Assembly (NCBI GenBank): GCA_013151735.1 | Contig: JAADHR010000146.1 | Span: 19,595-73,322, forward strand | Direction: 5' to 3' | DNA: 53,728 nucleotides | DNA from: Calditrichota bacterium | Lineage (GTDB): Bacteria > Zhuqueibacterota > JdFR-76 > BMS3Abin05 | In this document: in pieces, positions 3,364-25,437 of the stretch | Numbering within the stretch: the stretch's first letter is position 1 | Layout of the letters: each line of letters begins with the position of its first letter | Program-made: the position numbers and the translations under genes | Notes under the pieces: generated by a model | The model's input: the letters and a program-made list of their open reading frames with translations, nothing else | The model's database searches: none | Told to the model about the DNA's origin: nothing

Positions 3364-3401
3364 TCTTCAAATTCTATACGTAACTTTTGAGGGAGCTTTT
3401 T

Positions 3402-4595
3402 ATGAAACGAAGAAATTTTATGCAAACATCTACCATTTTAACCGCGGCTGCGGCCCTTTTGCCGACCCATTTGCTCAGTAAGCCGGTCATGGCCGCCAAC
3501 GCCCAAAAATTTCCGGCCCCGCTGAAACCCGTCATGGACGGCGATGTGAAGGAGTTCCACCTTTTTATCGATATCCATCAACAGGAATTCGTGCCCGGTT
3601 TTAAAATCCACACGCTGGCCTTTAACAATCAGGTGCCAGGACCGGAAATTCGTGTTAAACGCGGGGATAAGGTACGGGTTATTTTCAAAAACAAAACCGA
3701 GCTGAACCACACTATCCATTGGCACGGGATGCATGTTCCCTGGCGCATGGACGGTGTGCCTTATGTGACCCAAATGCCGGTGATGCCCGGGCAGGAGTTT
3801 GTGTACGAATTTACCGCCGAACCGCAGGGCACCCATTTTTACCACTGTCACTGGGGAACGTTATTACACATGCAGGCCGGTATGTACGGCAGCCTGATTG
3901 TAGAGGAAGACGACGATCCTATTCGCAAGCGCTTTCCTTATGAGCGCGAATACACCTTACTGTATTCGGCGCACGATGTGAACTTTTTGCGTGAAGAGAT
4001 GAACAGCATGCTGGAACGCATGAAAGAACGCATGTATCTGATGAAAACCGGACGGTTTAACAAAGAGCGTTTTGCCGTATTCAATACCAAAGAAGAATTT
4101 GTGCAGGCCGTTAAAAACGGCTATCAGCCGCCTTACGTGGTAAACCGCCGGGCGCCTGCCGACTTGCCGGTCGCCAACTGGTTTACGGTCAACGGAAAAT
4201 CGTATCCCATGACGCCCAATTTGTACATCAGAGAAGGTGAGAACATCCGCGTCCGTTTGATCAATGCCGGCATGGAAGAGCACTACCTGCATTTACACGG
4301 GCACGATTTTTGGCAGGTGGCCGATGACGGTCTGCCGGTGCCGCAGCCCTGGCAGCGCAATACCTTACGATTGAGTCCGGGTAAAACGCTGGACATTATT
4401 ATCGAGGGCAAAAACCGCGGCATTTGGACATTTCACGATCACGATACACGGCGGGTAACCAATAACGGGCTGTACCCGGGCGGCAACCTTTTGGCACTGG
4501 TGTACGAAGATCTGCCCGCCAAAGAGACGGAACTGAACATGATGGCTAAAAAAATGGGACTGAAAAACCTTCCCGTTGTGGCTTTAGATGAATAA
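3402..4595 (+). CDS. Two-domain multicopper oxidase with type 1 copper site in domain 1
   Basis: 397 aa. MKRRNFMQTS opens with a twin-arginine motif, so Tat export with copper loaded in the cytoplasm is likely. The ATG at 3402 with GAGGGA at 3389-3394 is preferred to the TTG at 3387. Domain 1 has HWHG (106-109) and HCHWGTLLHMQAGM (148-161), which provides both the trinuclear His pair and the type 1 set Cys149, His156, Met161. Domain 2 has HLHGHD (297-302) and HDHD (345-348), where Asp346 replaces the Cys of the usual C-terminal HCH motif. The type 1 site therefore lies in domain 1 only, the pattern of type C two-domain oxidases. A Met-rich stretch (199-214) may bind substrate Cu(I). Probable periplasmic cuprous oxidase. 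Confidence 0.85.
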   Translation: MKRRNFMQTSTILTAAAALLPTHLLSKPVMAANAQKFPAPLKPVMDGDVKEFHLFIDIHQQEFVPGFKIHTLAFNNQVPGPEIRVKRGDKVRVIFKNKTELNHTIHWHGMHVPWRMDGVPYVTQMPVMPGQEFVYEFTAEPQGTHFYHCHWGTLLHMQAGMYGSLIVEEDDDPIRKRFPYEREYTLLYSAHDVNFLREEMNSMLERMKERMYLMKTGRFNKERFAVFNTKEEFVQAVKNGYQPPYVVNRRAPADLPVANWFTVNGKSYPMTPNLYIREGENIRVRLINAGMEEHYLHLHGHDFWQVADDGLPVPQPWQRNTLRLSPGKTLDIIIEGKNRGIWTFHDHDTRRVTNNGLYPGGNLLALVYEDLPAKETELNMMAKKMGLKNLPVVALDE

Positions 4596-18500: not shown

Positions 18501-20690
18501 ATGAAAGACCACAATCACTCAAATCACTCGGACCATCATGATGAGCCCGAACACCATCATCATGACATGAATGACGAGCATAAGGAGCATGCGGATCATC
18601 AAGAAATGGAACACATGCACGACGAGCATGGCGATCACGAGGACCACCATCCTGCTGAACACGACAAACACGCCGAACACCAGCAAATGGAACATAGCCA
18701 TGCCGGACATCAGGACCATGCAGAACACAAGGGGCATCACGACCACCACGCCCACATGGTAGCCGATTTTCGCAAGCGGTTCTGGATTTCAACCCTGCTC
18801 ACACTTCCCATTCTGCTGCTTTCACCCATGGTTCAAAAATTTCTGGGACTGGGTGTCTCGTTGCAGTTTCCCGGATACACCTATCTTTTGTTCATCCTGT
18901 CATCTACCGTGTTCTTTTATGGGGGGTATCCATTTCTAAAGGGCCTGTTCGATGAACTTAAGAAGGCTACACCGGGCATGATGACATTGATTGCCCTGGC
19001 TATTTCCGTGGCCTATTTTTACAGCAGCTTTGTTGTCTTTGGCCTGAGCGGAAAATTTTTCTTCTGGGAACTGGCCACTTTAATCGACATCATGCTTGTG
19101 GGACACTGGATTGAAATGAAATCGGTAATGGGGGCGTCGCGGGCGCTGGAAGAGCTGGCCAAACTGATGCCTGCCGATGCCCATAAACTCATGCCTGACG
19201 GCTCCGTTATGGATGTCCCCCTGGACCAATTGAAAGCAGGGGATCGTGTACTGGTTAAACCCGGTGAAAAGGTCCCGGCCGACGGCATGGTTGTGGACGG
19301 TGAATCATCGGTAAACGAGGCCATGTTGACGGGTGAATCCAACCCGGTACATAAAACGGCCGGAAAGCCTGTCATCGGCGGGGCCATCAACGGCGAAGGA
19401 TCAATTACCGTCGAGGTGCAGCGAACGGGAAAGGATTCATTCCTGTCGCAGGTGATTGATTTGGTGCGCGAAGCCCAACAAAGCAAATCGAAAACACAAG
19501 ATTTGGCTAATCGCGCGGCATTCTGGCTGACGATTATCGCCATAACCGGTGGAGCGGTTACCCTATTCGTGTGGCTGGCCATCATGCACAAGGATTTCGC
19601 CTTTGCGCTGGAACGCACGGTAACGGTGATGGTTATTACCTGTCCGCATGCGCTGGGCCTGGCCGTGCCGCTGGTGGTTGCCGTATCAACGGCCATCTCG
19701 GCCAGCAACGGCCTGCTCATTCGAAATCGCATGGCTTTTGAATCCGCCAGAAAGATTCAGGCAATTATTTTTGACAAAACCGGAACACTGACGGAAGGAA
19801 AGTTCGGCGTTACGGATACCGTTTTACTGAATGGAAAATTGAATGAAGAAGAACTTCTGGCCTACGCTGCTTCTGTCGAAGCCCACTCCGAGCATCCTAT
19901 TGCTCAGGGCATCGTTAATTCCGTAAAGAAGGCCTGGGATGTGAAAGCCTTCAAAGCTATCCCCGGGAAAGGAGCACAGGGCGTTGTTAAGGGCAAAAAG
20001 GTAATGGTAGTCAGCCCGGGTTACCTGCGCGAGGAAAAAATTGATATTCAAAACAAAGCCATCGAAACCCTGAATAGTCAAGGCAAAACGGTCGTTTATG
20101 TTTTGATTGATGGTATGGCAGTGGGCGCCATTGCACTGGCCGATATTATTCGACCCGAATCCAAGGAAGCCGTGAAGCGGCTGAAAGAAATGGGCATCCG
20201 TACCATGATGCTCACCGGTGATAATAAACAGGTAGCAAAATGGGTTGCCGACGAATTGGATCTGGATGAGTATTTTGCGGAAGTTTTGCCGCATGAAAAA
20301 GCTGCTAAACTCAAAGATGTGCAGTCGCGAGGCCTGACCGTGGCGATGACCGGTGACGGCGTCAACGACGCCCCGGCTCTGGCACAGGCTGATGTGGGAA
20401 TCGCTATTGGCGCCGGAACGGATGTGGCCGTTGAGACGGCAGATATTATACTGGTGCGCAGTAATCCGCTGGACGTGGTGGCCATTATTGGCCTGGCCAA
20501 AGCCACATACAGAAAGATGGTGCAAAACCTGGCCTGGGCAACCGGCTACAATGCCTTTGCCATCCCTCTGGCTGCTGGTGTTTTATACAGCTACGGAGTC
20601 TTGTTAACCCCTGCCATGGGTGCCGTGCTGATGTCTTTAAGCACAGTCATCGTGGCCATTAACGCACGTTTTTTAAAACTAAAAAAATAA
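18501..20690 (+). CDS. copB: CopB-type copper-exporting P1B-3 ATPase with His-rich N-terminus
   Basis: 729 aa. Residues 1-90 are a His/Met/Asp-rich segment (many HH and HxH pairs) replacing the usual HMA domain, as in CopB. The membrane motif VITCPHALGL (CPH, 381-383) defines the P1B-3 class that moves copper (Cu+/Cu2+) or silver. The phosphorylation site is DKTGTLTEG (Asp 425), the SEHPIAQGI motif contains the nucleotide-binding HP, and the hinge is GDGVNDAPAL. Length and eight-helix layout are normal. Ribosome site AGAGGGA at 18487-18493. It sits behind the activator palindrome and sigma-54 promoter and 29 nt before a DUF302 gene. Export from the cytoplasm to the periplasm is expected. Confidence 0.93.
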   Translation: MKDHNHSNHSDHHDEPEHHHHDMNDEHKEHADHQEMEHMHDEHGDHEDHHPAEHDKHAEHQQMEHSHAGHQDHAEHKGHHDHHAHMVADFRKRFWISTLLTLPILLLSPMVQKFLGLGVSLQFPGYTYLLFILSSTVFFYGGYPFLKGLFDELKKATPGMMTLIALAISVAYFYSSFVVFGLSGKFFFWELATLIDIMLVGHWIEMKSVMGASRALEELAKLMPADAHKLMPDGSVMDVPLDQLKAGDRVLVKPGEKVPADGMVVDGESSVNEAMLTGESNPVHKTAGKPVIGGAINGEGSITVEVQRTGKDSFLSQVIDLVREAQQSKSKTQDLANRAAFWLTIIAITGGAVTLFVWLAIMHKDFAFALERTVTVMVITCPHALGLAVPLVVAVSTAISASNGLLIRNRMAFESARKIQAIIFDKTGTLTEGKFGVTDTVLLNGKLNEEELLAYAASVEAHSEHPIAQGIVNSVKKAWDVKAFKAIPGKGAQGVVKGKKVMVVSPGYLREEKIDIQNKAIETLNSQGKTVVYVLIDGMAVGAIALADIIRPESKEAVKRLKEMGIRTMMLTGDNKQVAKWVADELDLDEYFAEVLPHEKAAKLKDVQSRGLTVAMTGDGVNDAPALAQADVGIAIGAGTDVAVETADIILVRSNPLDVVAIIGLAKATYRKMVQNLAWATGYNAFAIPLAAGVLYSYGVLLTPAMGAVLMSLSTVIVAINARFLKLKK

Positions 20691-21352: not shown

Positions 21353-21946
21353 ATGAAAATTATTTCAATGGCTTTTTCAACAGCTTTACTGGTTCTAATT
21401 TGGGTACTGAACCTGACTGCCGGAGAAATTACCGGAACGGTCACCGTTAAAGGGGCGGCGGATAATGGGGGTGCCGTCGTGTTTATTGTAAAAAATAAGG
21501 GCATGACATTCCCGGCCCCGAAACAAGAACCGGCTATGAATCAGAAAAACCTGAAATTTACACCCCATGTACTGGCGGTAATGGTGGGCACCACGGTAAA
21601 ATTTAAAAATAACGACAAGGTTGCCCACAATATTTTCACGCCTTCCCCGGCCGGTGACCGGTTCAACCTGGGAACGTGGAAAGGCAATCAGGTTAAGACC
21701 CACACGTTCACTAAAAGCGGTGAAGTGGTGCTGCTGTGCAACCTTCACCCCGAAATGGAGGGCTTCATTTATGTGGCACCCACGCCGTATTTCGCCAAGA
21801 CCGATGCAGCGGGGCGCTACAAAATCGAGAATGTGCCGGCGGGCTCCTACACGCTCAAAGTGTGGTCGGAATACGGAAATGCCCGGCCGCAAAAAGTGAC
21901 GGTTCCGGAAAAGGGAACGGTCACTGCAAATTTTATGGTAAAATGA
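21353..21946 (+). CDS. Exported blue-copper (cupredoxin) protein with C-terminal Ig-like domain
   Basis: 197 aa. Signal peptide 1-23. The cupredoxin domain (about 24-142) has a complete type 1 copper site: His92 in VAHNIF, then Cys129, His132 and Met135 in LLCNLHPEMEG. Residues 143-197 (FAKTDAAGRYKIENVPAGSYTLKVW) form a carboxypeptidase-regulatory-like beta sandwich. Strong ribosome site AAGGAG at 21341-21346. It heads a run of lipoprotein, pentaheme cytochrome and cytochrome-porin genes, so a periplasmic electron carrier is the favoured role, with copper storage or sensing as an alternative. Confidence 0.88.
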   Translation: MKIISMAFSTALLVLIWVLNLTAGEITGTVTVKGAADNGGAVVFIVKNKGMTFPAPKQEPAMNQKNLKFTPHVLAVMVGTTVKFKNNDKVAHNIFTPSPAGDRFNLGTWKGNQVKTHTFTKSGEVVLLCNLHPEMEGFIYVAPTPYFAKTDAAGRYKIENVPAGSYTLKVWSEYGNARPQKVTVPEKGTVTANFMVK

Positions 21947-21959
21947 GGGAAGACTAAGC

Positions 21960-22388
21960 ATGCAACAGCTGAAAGGAAAAATAGTCTGGGGGTTGGTCCT
22001 TGCTCTCTTACTCATTTTGGCTGCCTGCGGACAAAATTCAAATGAAAACAGGCGCGGCGGAATGATGAGTGGAGGAAATATGATGGAAGGCAGGCAGAAT
22101 AGAGTGGAGGACAGCACCGTTTCCGGAAAGGGTGGAATGATGGGGTCTTTTCAAAGCGGCCAGCGGACCGAAACATCCCGTAATTTTCAACAGAATATTA
22201 ACGAAAAAAAGGCCTATGAATTCGCGCAGGCGTATCTGCAATCCACCGGCAACACGGACTACAAAATCGGTAAAAGCCGGGAACGGGATGGCGGGTTTGA
22301 ATTTCCGTTGATTCGTAAATCGGATGGCATCCGCGTCGCCAGCCTTTTCGTGGACAAGAAAACCGGTAACGTGCGCTCAGTAAAATAA
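21960..22388 (+). CDS. Met/Gly-rich lipoprotein with PepSY-like C-terminus
   Basis: 142 aa. A lipobox LILAAC places the acylated Cys at residue 23. Residues 30-65 contain repeated GGMM/NMM groups, a possible Cu(I)-binding segment. The C-terminal part (EKKAYEFAQAYLQSTGNTDYKIGK ... SLFVDKKTGNVRSVK, described by its ends) resembles a single PepSY unit. It starts 13 nt after the blue-copper gene. Envelope copper binding is inferred from composition and place. Confidence 0.72.
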   Translation: MQQLKGKIVWGLVLALLLILAACGQNSNENRRGGMMSGGNMMEGRQNRVEDSTVSGKGGMMGSFQSGQRTETSRNFQQNINEKKAYEFAQAYLQSTGNTDYKIGKSRERDGGFEFPLIRKSDGIRVASLFVDKKTGNVRSVK

Positions 22389-22413
22389 ATAGTCGACATG
22401 AGGAGGAATGGCA

Positions 22414-24111
22414 ATGAAAAAATTGCACCTGCTGTCTCTTTTTTTGATGTTCGGTATAAGCGTTCCCCTGGTTCTGGCTCAATCCAATACCGTGATTACG
22501 GGTCGGGTGAGCGACGGCGTGCTGCCGATTTCCGGCGCAAGAGTCATGATTCAGGCCGATACGAGCTGGGTTACAACAGACAGCCGGGGTCGTTTCCGTC
22601 TTCCGGTGGATCGGTACCGGGGAAATCCGGTACCGGTTCTGGTGGGAAGAAAAGGCTGGTTTAATGGCGGTTGGGAGCTTAAGAAAGGCGAGCAAAATGC
22701 AGAACTGATCCTGTCGCCGGTTCCGCAGGGAGATAATCCCGATTACCGTTGGATTGATCCGGTACCCTCTTCCGGTGGAATGATGGGCGCAATGATGGGG
22801 GGCGGAAGTCCTACCTGCGGTAGTTGTCACGCAAACTATTACGACTGGTGGAAAGAATCTTCCATGGCAAAGACAACCCGCAATCCACGTGTAATGGATC
22901 AATATAAAGATGCCGGCGCTGCCCGAAAAATTTGTGCGGACTGCCACGCTCCGGCCGCCGCCGTTCAGGCGCCGGGTCAAACCGATTTACGAAAAGTTGT
23001 CCGCCGGGGGGGCGTTGAAGCGGAGGGTGTATCCTGTGATTTTTGCCATAAAATTAAAGACGTGGAAGTGAGCTTCAAGCCCGGGGTTCAAACCCTGAAA
23101 TTTAGCCGGATTGAACAACCCTCCCGCCGGATGGGAATGATGAGCACGCGGCCGGTAATGGCTTACGGCAGTCTGGCCGATGTCGTCACACCGCCCATGG
23201 CGGCCAGCTTTAATCCCGCATTGAGTCAGAGTGAGTTCTGTTCATCCTGCCACCTGAACGGCCGGGAACTGCCGGCCAAAAAAACCTGGGATTATAAAAC
23301 CGTTTATCCGAATGCTTCGCCGGAAGAGTTTCAGAACGGCCGAATCGTGCCCAATCAGTGGACCTACCAGGAGTGGAAAAACTGGCAGGAGAGCCTGCCT
23401 GCGGATGATCCCAATAAGGGACAGCAATGCCAGGACTGCCACATGAACTGGACACAGGATATGCTGCCGTATGACACCTACATTGTTCAGGCCGCAGGCG
23501 GCGGTATGACAAATAGGATGATTCGCCGTTTGAGAGTCCGCCGGGATCCGTCCACGATCCACCCCCATAAATTTGAAGGAGCAGCGGTTAAACGATTGCA
23601 AAACACGGCTTTCTTGTTGGTGCGACCCCGTTTACAGGGTAACCGGCTGTCGGTGATGGTCAGCGTCACAAATACCAATGCCGGTCACCGCCTTCCAACC
23701 GGGGTTACTTTCCGCAATATGCTTTTGCTGGTGCAGGCAGCCGATTCCACCGGAAAAATCTTATCCCAGACTGCGGGGCCCAAGATTCCCGAATGGGCTG
23801 GAAAGGGCAGCCCGGAGAAAGGAAATTATGCAGGCCTTCCCGGTGTGGGCTATGCCCGTATCACCGCAGATGATCGTGGAAATATCAATGTCCCGTTTTG
23901 GAAGGCCACAAAAATTGTTCAGGACAACCGGCTGGTCCCCCGGAAACCGGATGTGCAAAATTTTGTTTTTGATGCTGCGAACACCCGGAATTATATCACG
24001 GTGAAGGTGACACTTATTTACCGCAAAGCCTTTAAGCCGCTGGCTGACCAATATGGCTGGGAGACCGGTGACGTGGTGATGGAAGAAAAATCAAAGGTCG
24101 TTTATAAATAA
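22414..24111 (+). CDS. Exported pentaheme c-type cytochrome
   Basis: 565 aa from the ATG at 22414, 7 nt after AGGAGG (the ATG at 22408 is too close). Signal peptide 1-22. Residues 25-115 form a carboxypeptidase-regulatory-like beta sandwich. Five CxxCH haem sites follow: CGSCH 135, CADCH 174, CDFCH 208, CSSCH 276 and CQDCH 339. Extra His residues could serve as distal ligands. Residues 375-565 are beta-rich (NTNAGHRLPTGVTFRNMLLL), as in cytochrome c554-family proteins. Position between a blue-copper protein and a haem-porin suggests a periplasmic or surface electron-transfer role; multihaem reductase activity is an alternative. Confidence 0.9.
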   Translation: MKKLHLLSLFLMFGISVPLVLAQSNTVITGRVSDGVLPISGARVMIQADTSWVTTDSRGRFRLPVDRYRGNPVPVLVGRKGWFNGGWELKKGEQNAELILSPVPQGDNPDYRWIDPVPSSGGMMGAMMGGGSPTCGSCHANYYDWWKESSMAKTTRNPRVMDQYKDAGAARKICADCHAPAAAVQAPGQTDLRKVVRRGGVEAEGVSCDFCHKIKDVEVSFKPGVQTLKFSRIEQPSRRMGMMSTRPVMAYGSLADVVTPPMAASFNPALSQSEFCSSCHLNGRELPAKKTWDYKTVYPNASPEEFQNGRIVPNQWTYQEWKNWQESLPADDPNKGQQCQDCHMNWTQDMLPYDTYIVQAAGGGMTNRMIRRLRVRRDPSTIHPHKFEGAAVKRLQNTAFLLVRPRLQGNRLSVMVSVTNTNAGHRLPTGVTFRNMLLLVQAADSTGKILSQTAGPKIPEWAGKGSPEKGNYAGLPGVGYARITADDRGNINVPFWKATKIVQDNRLVPRKPDVQNFVFDAANTRNYITVKVTLIYRKAFKPLADQYGWETGDVVMEEKSKVVYK

Positions 24112-24168
24112 TTTCAAGGTGTTACAAAATTTAATTGGGACCGGGCAACCAAAACCGAGGACGTAAAA

Positions 24169-25437
24169 ATGAAACGCTTTATTGCTTCTCTTGGCGTATT
24201 TATTTTCAGTTTTATGTTTTTTCTGGCAGTCGATAAACCCGCTCAAGCCATTCCGGCATTCGCCCGGAAATATCGGACCAGCTGCGCCACCTGTCATGCG
24301 GCCTTCCCCAAACTGAACGCTTTCGGGCAGGCGTTCCGGCGTCTGGGATATCATTTCCCTCAGGGCCAGGATGCGCAGATGGTCAAGGAGAAACCTATCA
24401 GCATGGGAGCAAACGCCTACAAGAGGCTCTGGCCCAATGCGGTCTGGCCGTCCACCATTCCGGGAACGGCGCCTATCGGGGTGATGCTGGAGAGTGAAAT
24501 CGGTGTTAACACCGAAGCAGACCGTACGAATGTGGATTTTTCGCAACTGATGAGTGAAATGGAAATATTAACCGGCGGAAATATCGGCGACGATATCAAT
24601 TTTTTAACCTCACTGTCCATTGGTGAAGAGGGCGTCGAACTGGAGATGGGCTATGTGGGATTTTACAATATTATAAAGGACGCCCGGCTCAATCTGAAGG
24701 TCGGAAAACTGCCTCCCGAGGTGCTCTTTGTGACCAACCACCGGCGTTTTGGACCGCCTTACTGGATAACCACCCGCACAATGGGAGACAATGAATGGTC
24801 TTTGGAAAACAGCCAGAAAGGGCTGGAAGCCAGCGGTATTTTGGCCTCCGGCAGGCTGGGCTACAATGTCGGTTTGGTGGAAGGACGGGGAAATCTTCAG
24901 AATCCTTTCAAAGAACCCTATTTTCACATCGCCTATAAATTTGGCGGACTCCCTTACAATGGGGTCAGTCCCGGAACACAACATAACGGCCGGCAGAGCT
25001 GGGGGGATAATGCACTGCAAATCGGTGTTTTTGCCTATATCGGCAAAGCCCAACTGACGGTGAACCAGGAAGATGCTTTCCGAATGCTGGGCGGCGACTT
25101 TGATGCCAATTACCGGCATTTGAAACTTGCGGGCGGATTTTCTTACCGGACGGATGACAGTCCTTACAAAAATCTTTCCACCGGCACAACAAATCGGATT
25201 TACTACCTGGAAGGGTATTACATGCTGTACCCCTGGCTGATCCCCTTCCTTCGCTGGGAAGCGTGGCAATTTAAACGGGCTGACCACGGAACAGCCACTT
25301 CGGACAGCCGGTTTGTGCCGGCACTGCAGGTCCTGCTTCGGGCTAATGTTCGTACTTACGTCAGCGCGGAAATTAAAAAATCAGACGGATCATACGATAT
25401 GGGCCATGTTAACTTTGGATTGCTGCTGGGATTTTGA
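24169..25437 (+). CDS. Monoheme cytochrome-porin fusion, Cyc2-like outer-membrane protein
   Basis: 422 aa. Signal peptide ends AQA at residue 27. The mature N-terminus IPAFARKYRTSCATCHAAFP places one haem site (CATCH, 39-43) in the PxFAR...CxxCHxxFPxLNxFGxxFR context, followed by KLNAFGQAFRRLGYHF. This arrangement is the hallmark of Cyc2-like fused cytochrome-porins, where a small haem domain plugs a 16-strand barrel; the remaining 350 residues are barrel-like. Length fits (Cyc2 proteins run about 400-500 aa). Ribosome site GAGGA about 10 nt upstream. Cyc2 of iron oxidisers takes electrons from Fe(II) outside the cell; whether this homologue does so, or handles another metal, is inference. 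Confidence 0.8.
   Translation: MKRFIASLGVFIFSFMFFLAVDKPAQAIPAFARKYRTSCATCHAAFPKLNAFGQAFRRLGYHFPQGQDAQMVKEKPISMGANAYKRLWPNAVWPSTIPGTAPIGVMLESEIGVNTEADRTNVDFSQLMSEMEILTGGNIGDDINFLTSLSIGEEGVELEMGYVGFYNIIKDARLNLKVGKLPPEVLFVTNHRRFGPPYWITTRTMGDNEWSLENSQKGLEASGILASGRLGYNVGLVEGRGNLQNPFKEPYFHIAYKFGGLPYNGVSPGTQHNGRQSWGDNALQIGVFAYIGKAQLTVNQEDAFRMLGGDFDANYRHLKLAGGFSYRTDDSPYKNLSTGTTNRIYYLEGYYMLYPWLIPFLRWEAWQFKRADHGTATSDSRFVPALQVLLRANVRTYVSAEIKKSDGSYDMGHVNFGLLLGF

Follow-up and report, generated by a model that had tools for sequence, protein, structure and literature searches.

A Cyc2-like cytochrome-porin clustered with a type 1 copper protein: a candidate outer-membrane electron conduit in a Calditrichota bacterium

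The Cyc2 family (Clusters 1 to 3; McAllister 2020; Keffer 2021) consists of monoheme cytochromes fused to a 16-strand porin and carries a haem-region consensus, AXPXFAR[Q/K][T/Y] before a single CXXCH and PXL after it, that is unique to Cyc2 according to Keffer et al. (PMC8406198). OprP and OprO are the folds named in the literature for Cyc2PV-1. The function of Cluster 3 is the most uncertain (Keffer et al., PMC8406198), and the functional difference between Cluster 1 and Cluster 3 Cyc2 is stated as not known (PMC7029218). In the rus operon of Acidithiobacillus ferrooxidans, Cyc2 is clustered with Cyc1, CoxBACD, and the blue-copper protein rusticyanin. The MtoAB, PioAB, and MtrAB porin-cytochrome complexes, with their decahaem plug, form a different family.

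The locus described here lies in a stretch of 53,728 nucleotides from a Calditrichota bacterium (contig JAADHR010000146.1), referred to below as the window. It resembles the Cyc2 family, with which it shares a monoheme domain fused to a predicted 16-strand porin, the haem consensus, and a similar length; the single haem fused to the barrel, with no decahaem plug, sets it apart from the MtoAB-type complexes. Like the rus operon, it brings together an outer-membrane Cyc2-like protein and a periplasmic blue-copper carrier.

A four-gene cluster encoding a Cyc2-like cytochrome-porin

Four consecutive genes had been described in the window, and all four open reading frames were found on the + strand in the order cupredoxin, lipoprotein, pentaheme cytochrome, and cytochrome-porin, with intergenic gaps of 13, 19, and 57 bp (Table 1). 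The same genes occur in identical order in the other genome of the genus that was examined (Bacterium BMS3Bbin03; L031 and L051). Between the two genomes, the cupredoxin, pentaheme, and cytochrome-porin each share 88% amino acid identity with a dN/dS of about 0.15, and the lipoprotein shares 69% with a dN/dS of about 0.3. Purifying selection thus maintains all four genes. The host genome of the window encodes a single homolog each of the cupredoxin and the cytochrome-porin, the two in this one cluster, and the cupredoxin holds the only copy of the copper domain in that genome.

Table 1. Features of the four-gene cluster (positions are those of the window)
Feature	Position	Strand	Evidence
Exported type 1 copper protein, 197 aa, with C-terminal carboxypeptidase-regulatory-like domain	21353..21946	+	Pfam Copper-bind 1.1e-4, CarboxypepD_reg 3e-8
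Copper-binding domain, residues 63-141, ligands H92, C129, H132, M135	21539..21775	+	Alignment of 25 homologs
Lipoprotein, 142 aa, MMSGGNMM stretch, weak PepSY-like C-terminal part	21960..22388	+	Lipobox Cys23; weak YpeB/PepSY match, 0.008
Exported pentaheme c-type cytochrome, 567 aa, resembling CarboxypepD_reg at the N-terminus and cytochrome c554 in the haem region	22408..24111	+	Cytochrome_C554 8e-9
Five CxxCH haem motifs of the pentaheme, residues 137-345	22816..23442	+	Motif positions
Cyc2-like monoheme cytochrome fused to outer-membrane barrel, 422 aa	24169..25437	+	Keffer consensus, tree, AlphaFold2 model
Haem region AIPAFARKYRTSCATCHAAFPKLN	24247..24318	+	Full agreement with the PMC8406198 Cyc2 motif
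Predicted 16-strand beta barrel, residues 103-421	24475..25431	+	AlphaFold2 mean pLDDT 77.9, pTM 0.76

The exported type 1 copper protein proposed in the preliminary description was borne out, with all four assigned ligands in place. Among the 25 aligned homologs, C129, H132, and M135 are invariant and H92 is kept in more than 90%. An AlphaFold2 model built from these homologs (pLDDT 94) predicts a cupredoxin fold carrying the His, Cys, His, and Met ligands, and its Foldseek matches are purple cupredoxin, amicyanin, plastocyanin, and other cupredoxins. In two related cupredoxins (L083, 6066-6659; L162, 8896-9579), Asn occupies the position of His92, and the Cys, His, and Met are kept.

The five-haem cytochrome was confirmed by CxxCH motifs at residues 137, 176, 210, 278, and 341. 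The second gene product is a lipoprotein by its lipobox, although the methionine richness ascribed to it is mild (4.9% Met); among the loci examined, its homolog was found in the same genus only.

The last gene product, referred to as the 24169 protein by its start position, contains a single CxxCH and fits the pattern A.P.FAR[QK][TY]...C..CH...P.L. Its haem region AIPAFARKYRTSCATCHAAFPKL satisfies the consensus residue by residue (AIPAFARKY RTS CATCH AAF PKL). At 422 aa, with the hydrophobic N-terminus MKRFIASLGVFIFSFMFFLAVDKPAQA (predicted helix 2-20) as a putative signal, it has the length given for Cyc2 proteins (at least 365 aa with signal peptide). Pfam and NCBIfam searches gave no match for this protein, a PDB sequence search gave no relevant match, and a plasmid search returned haem-domain similarities only. 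An AlphaFold2 model from 30 relatives predicts 16 long strands, and the best Foldseek matches of this barrel are 16-strand porins, with OprP and OprO among the top 14. The haem domain (24-38) and the linker (66-100) have low pLDDT, so that the plug geometry is tentative. The fusion of a monoheme cytochrome to a barrel in a Cyc2-like context thus holds on both the exact consensus match and the predicted barrel, and the 24169 protein is a Cyc2-family homolog.

Phylogenetic placement and the conserved cupredoxin pair

Phylogenetic analysis of 93 rows, among which the characterised Cyc2 proteins (PV-1, A. ferrooxidans, and Leptospirillum Cyt572) are not included, placed the 24169 protein in a clade, clade A, with SH-aLRT support of 95. 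It falls outside a 14-row clade, C1 (FARQTG/CHFQHFP type), that includes a protein of Chlorobium sp. L304-S-6D (L202), the named genome that anchors the Cluster-1-type label; the label of the "C2-like" rows (L195 and L196) comes from the motif only. A topology joining the window protein with C1 was rejected at a borderline p = 0.048 (AU test), and one joining it with clade B was clearly rejected (p = 7e-7). The 24169 protein, with FARKY instead of FARQTG, accordingly groups outside Cyc2 Cluster 1, the neutrophilic Fe oxidase type, so iron oxidation cannot be assumed. Of the earlier claim of a Cyc2-like iron oxidase, membership in the Cyc2 family therefore stands, but the tree sets it apart from the iron oxidases of the Cluster-1 type. 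Pseudomonadota was considered as the source phylum of the Cluster-1-type sequences and is probably not correct (low UbiG score).

Clade A likely corresponds to Cyc2 Cluster 3, on indirect grounds. It includes a protein of a Gemmatimonadales MAG (L072), and the name of that MAG (Dive96) leads to a study in which most such homologs were put in Cyc2 cluster III, with Gemmatimonadota and Calditrichota listed (PMC9769843).

When GTDB species genomes were scanned for the cytochrome-porin family, 564 relatives and 80 loci were recovered; the scan used haem-region patterns only and was thus blind to neighbouring genes. A homologous cupredoxin gene lies within 400 bp of the cytochrome-porin gene, always on the same strand, in 64 of the 79 clade-A loci with enough flank, and it is downstream in 60 of these 64. 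In the other clade-A loci the cupredoxin is 1.1 to 4.2 kb away, or none is present in the stretch examined. Because the cupredoxin HMM also matches CarboxypepD_reg domains elsewhere, we also give a ligand-motif count that is independent of it, by which the pair is present in 58/79 loci. No pairing was seen in the 40 loci of clades B, C1, C2-like, and other, and none of 12 Cluster-1-type loci has a cupredoxin gene within 400 bp. The suggestion that a blue-copper carrier accompanies the conduit is thereby strengthened: a periplasmic cupredoxin partner is the rule in clade A.

Loci with the pair are spread over at least 15 phyla by name, including Myxococcota, Acidobacteriota, Bacteroidota, Ignavibacteriota, Chlorobiota, Nitrospirota, Nitrospinota, Gemmatimonadota, Planctomycetota, and Calditrichota. 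Most of the genomes are MAGs, in which individual phylum labels may be wrong, and the breadth of the spread is not in doubt; the loci are related by descent, so the pair counts are not independent events. No description of the pair was found in the freely accessible literature searched.

In one locus (L101), a tandem pair of Cyc2-like open frames adjoins the cupredoxin, and in a relative from the same phylum (L035:9479-9841) the Cyc2-like gene is open for 120 residues only and is probably truncated or frameshifted. In Chlorobium sp. L304-S-6D (L122, L202, and L214), a Cluster-1-type Cyc2 coexists with two paralogs of the FARKY type, of which one has a cupredoxin as its neighbour; this one photosynthetic genome is well suited to comparing Cyc2 types.

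Clade B (L036-L048) contains a different conserved pair, a pentaheme and a 390-aa Cyc2-like protein (FARRYKISCSTCHAPFPKLKPYGDEFAGNGFIL) without a cupredoxin, in many genomes of the window's phylum. The window pentaheme is related to these partners (7.5e-13) and the Cyc2-like haem motif is common to both, but clade B is separate and lacks the cupredoxin, while the window has both partners. The cluster is therefore a genus-specific hybrid of a clade-A cupredoxin partner, a clade-B-like pentaheme, and an added lipoprotein. A search for the same gene order in other genomes, as had been suggested, recovered the full order in the second genome of the genus; the order is genus specific, and only the cupredoxin/cytochrome-porin pair is ancient. 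Since the four-gene order recurs in the genus and its core pair recurs across many phyla, the cluster is not a chance arrangement.

Genomic setting and host respiration

A Rieske/cytochrome b complex or alternative complex III (ACIII) is encoded within 10 kb in 27 of the 44 well-flanked clade-A loci, and a sensor kinase or sigma-54 (NtrC-type) response regulator is near 28 of them. One locus (L032) reads two-component system, cytochrome-porin, cupredoxin, oxidoreductase, Rieske, cytochrome b, octaheme, and monoheme; another (L034) has a two-component system, cytochrome-porin, and cupredoxin, followed by ACIII genes. CopA, DUF302, or CusA homologs are within 10 kb in only 2/44 loci, and copper resistance was rejected on this count as the general context of the pair. 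With quinol-oxidising neighbours common and copper genes rare, the cupredoxin looks like an electron carrier. The alternative drawn from the island setting, copper as the redox partner, is thereby disfavoured as far as a general substrate is concerned.

The window copy is unlike most of its relatives, with no quinone-linked complex adjoining it and a location in a metal-resistance island; the adjacent quinol-oxidising genes were either lost or never present in this genus. Directly upstream are a CPH-type copper ATPase gene and a DUF302 gene, and ArsR regulators, a TonB receptor, a CusA-type pump, and a second P-type ATPase are also nearby. The N-terminus of the copper P-type ATPase (18501-20690) is very rich in His, and the CPH motif reads TCPHAL; the protein is CopB-like rather than CopA-like, and its gene is followed by the DUF302 gene. 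The island also encodes a Met-rich exported protein (155-781; 11.5% Met), a multicopper oxidase (3387-4595), and two ArsR-type regulators (25518 and 30814). To judge from the related loci, the copper-island setting is peculiar to this genus.

In the host genome no full haem-copper oxidase was matched, the COX1 search hitting only a small protein of 151 aa; the genome is 95% complete, so gene absences are provisional. Its respiratory genes include those for a bd oxidase and a single NrfD complex, together with two Rieske/cytochrome b loci. The first of the two loci lies beside genes for Nap nitrate reductase, an octaheme, and further multihaem proteins. In this region (L228; C179:59000-76000), Nap genes, Rieske, cytochrome b, octaheme, tetraheme, 11-haem, and 9-haem stand in a row, which gives the host a large cluster for periplasmic electron transfer. 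The second Rieske/cytochrome b locus (L229; C62, 6948-10573) lies between two pentahaem cytochromes. The host genome gave no match to the L032 octaheme but has a different octaheme beside Rieske/cytochrome b.

The analogy drawn with the rus operon survives as an idea, Cyc2 plus blue copper, but not in its parts: neither Cyc1 nor aa3 oxidase (cox) genes accompany the Cyc2-like and cupredoxin genes in the cluster. In relatives of the cluster, the linkage is to an NtrC-type two-component system and to Rieske/cytochrome b or ACIII; the window cupredoxin, with its CarboxypepD_reg-like domain, resembles amicyanin, purple cupredoxin, and plastocyanin and does not belong to an acidophile operon.

A proposed electron route and its alternatives

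We lean slightly towards reading the cluster as an outer-membrane electron conduit that runs inward, with Fe(II) as the likeliest donor. The 24169 protein would form a 16-strand barrel with its N-terminal haem domain at the periplasmic mouth and would accept single electrons from a donor outside the cell, the likeliest being dissolved Fe(II), which we favour over Cu(I) as the substrate. Electrons would then pass to the periplasmic carriers encoded alongside, the cupredoxin as the ancient conserved partner and the pentaheme in this genus, and from these into the respiratory chain at the level of quinone/Rieske-cytochrome b and to periplasmic reductases. We infer the transfer between the proteins, the inward direction, the Fe(II) donor, and the link to the Rieske/cytochrome b and Nap loci of the host; its gene content would allow electrons arriving in the periplasm to be passed on to nitrate or the quinone pool. 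This reading is based on the Cyc2 motif and length, the predicted barrel, the conserved pair, the linkage to Rieske/ACIII genes, purifying selection, and the Rieske and Nap loci of the host. Counted against it are the grouping apart from Cluster 1 in a tree that holds no characterised Cyc2, the poorly modelled haem domain and linker, the cupredoxins of the clade that lack the first His ligand, and the missing quinone-linked neighbour together with the metal-resistance setting of the window copy.

The same conduit might run in reverse, with Rieske/cytochrome b or ACIII oxidising quinol and electrons leaving through the cupredoxin and cytochrome-porin for a high-potential acceptor outside the cell, for example Fe(III) or Mn(IV). 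Porin-cytochrome conduits can run in both directions (PMC10734462), many carriers of the pair are anaerobe-type MAGs, and the linkage to quinol-oxidising complexes fits a downhill transfer to a carrier of a few hundred mV. However, the Cyc2-type monoheme porins tested to date oxidise Fe(II) (PMC8406198), and a clade-A pair occurs in the Chlorobium genome (L122), which needs electron donors and not external acceptors; we regard outward flow as unlikely. It is quite improbable, in our estimation, that the four genes serve copper handling in this genus by oxidising or sequestering periplasmic or surface Cu(I), with the cupredoxin, the Met-containing lipoprotein, and the pentaheme as copper-binding parts of the resistance island. 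The metal-resistance genes nearby and the MMSGGNMM and MMGAMMGGG stretches in two genus-specific proteins would suit such a role, but sequestration needs neither multihaem nor porin parts, the pair itself is ancient and has respiratory links in other lineages, and the scarcity of copper genes at related loci also speaks against it. The similarity of the predicted barrel to solute porins and the poorly resolved haem domain would agree with a redox-gated or haem-anchored transport channel in place of an electron wire. That reading is hard to reconcile with the conserved association of the porin with a single-electron carrier and with complexes that oxidise quinol, or with the oxidase activity measured for Cyc2 relatives (PMC8406198), and we give it very little weight.

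Beyond this genus, we hold it about evenly balanced whether the Cyc2-like protein and cupredoxin constitute a respiratory module, widespread across at least 15 phyla and not described before, that leads from the outer membrane to Rieske/cytochrome b or ACIII under an NtrC-type two-component system. Such a module would supply the periplasmic partner for the part of the Cyc2 family that is still uncharacterised, and the window would represent a recombination of it with the pentaheme of a second Cyc2-like system. The conserved pairing with a single-copper carrier, often encoded near a quinol-oxidising complex, provides a specific partner amenable to testing and a path into the quinone pool. The presence or absence of the pair may also serve as a genetic marker dividing two kinds of Cyc2 homologs, which reports on MAGs now often treat without distinction as iron-oxidation genes.
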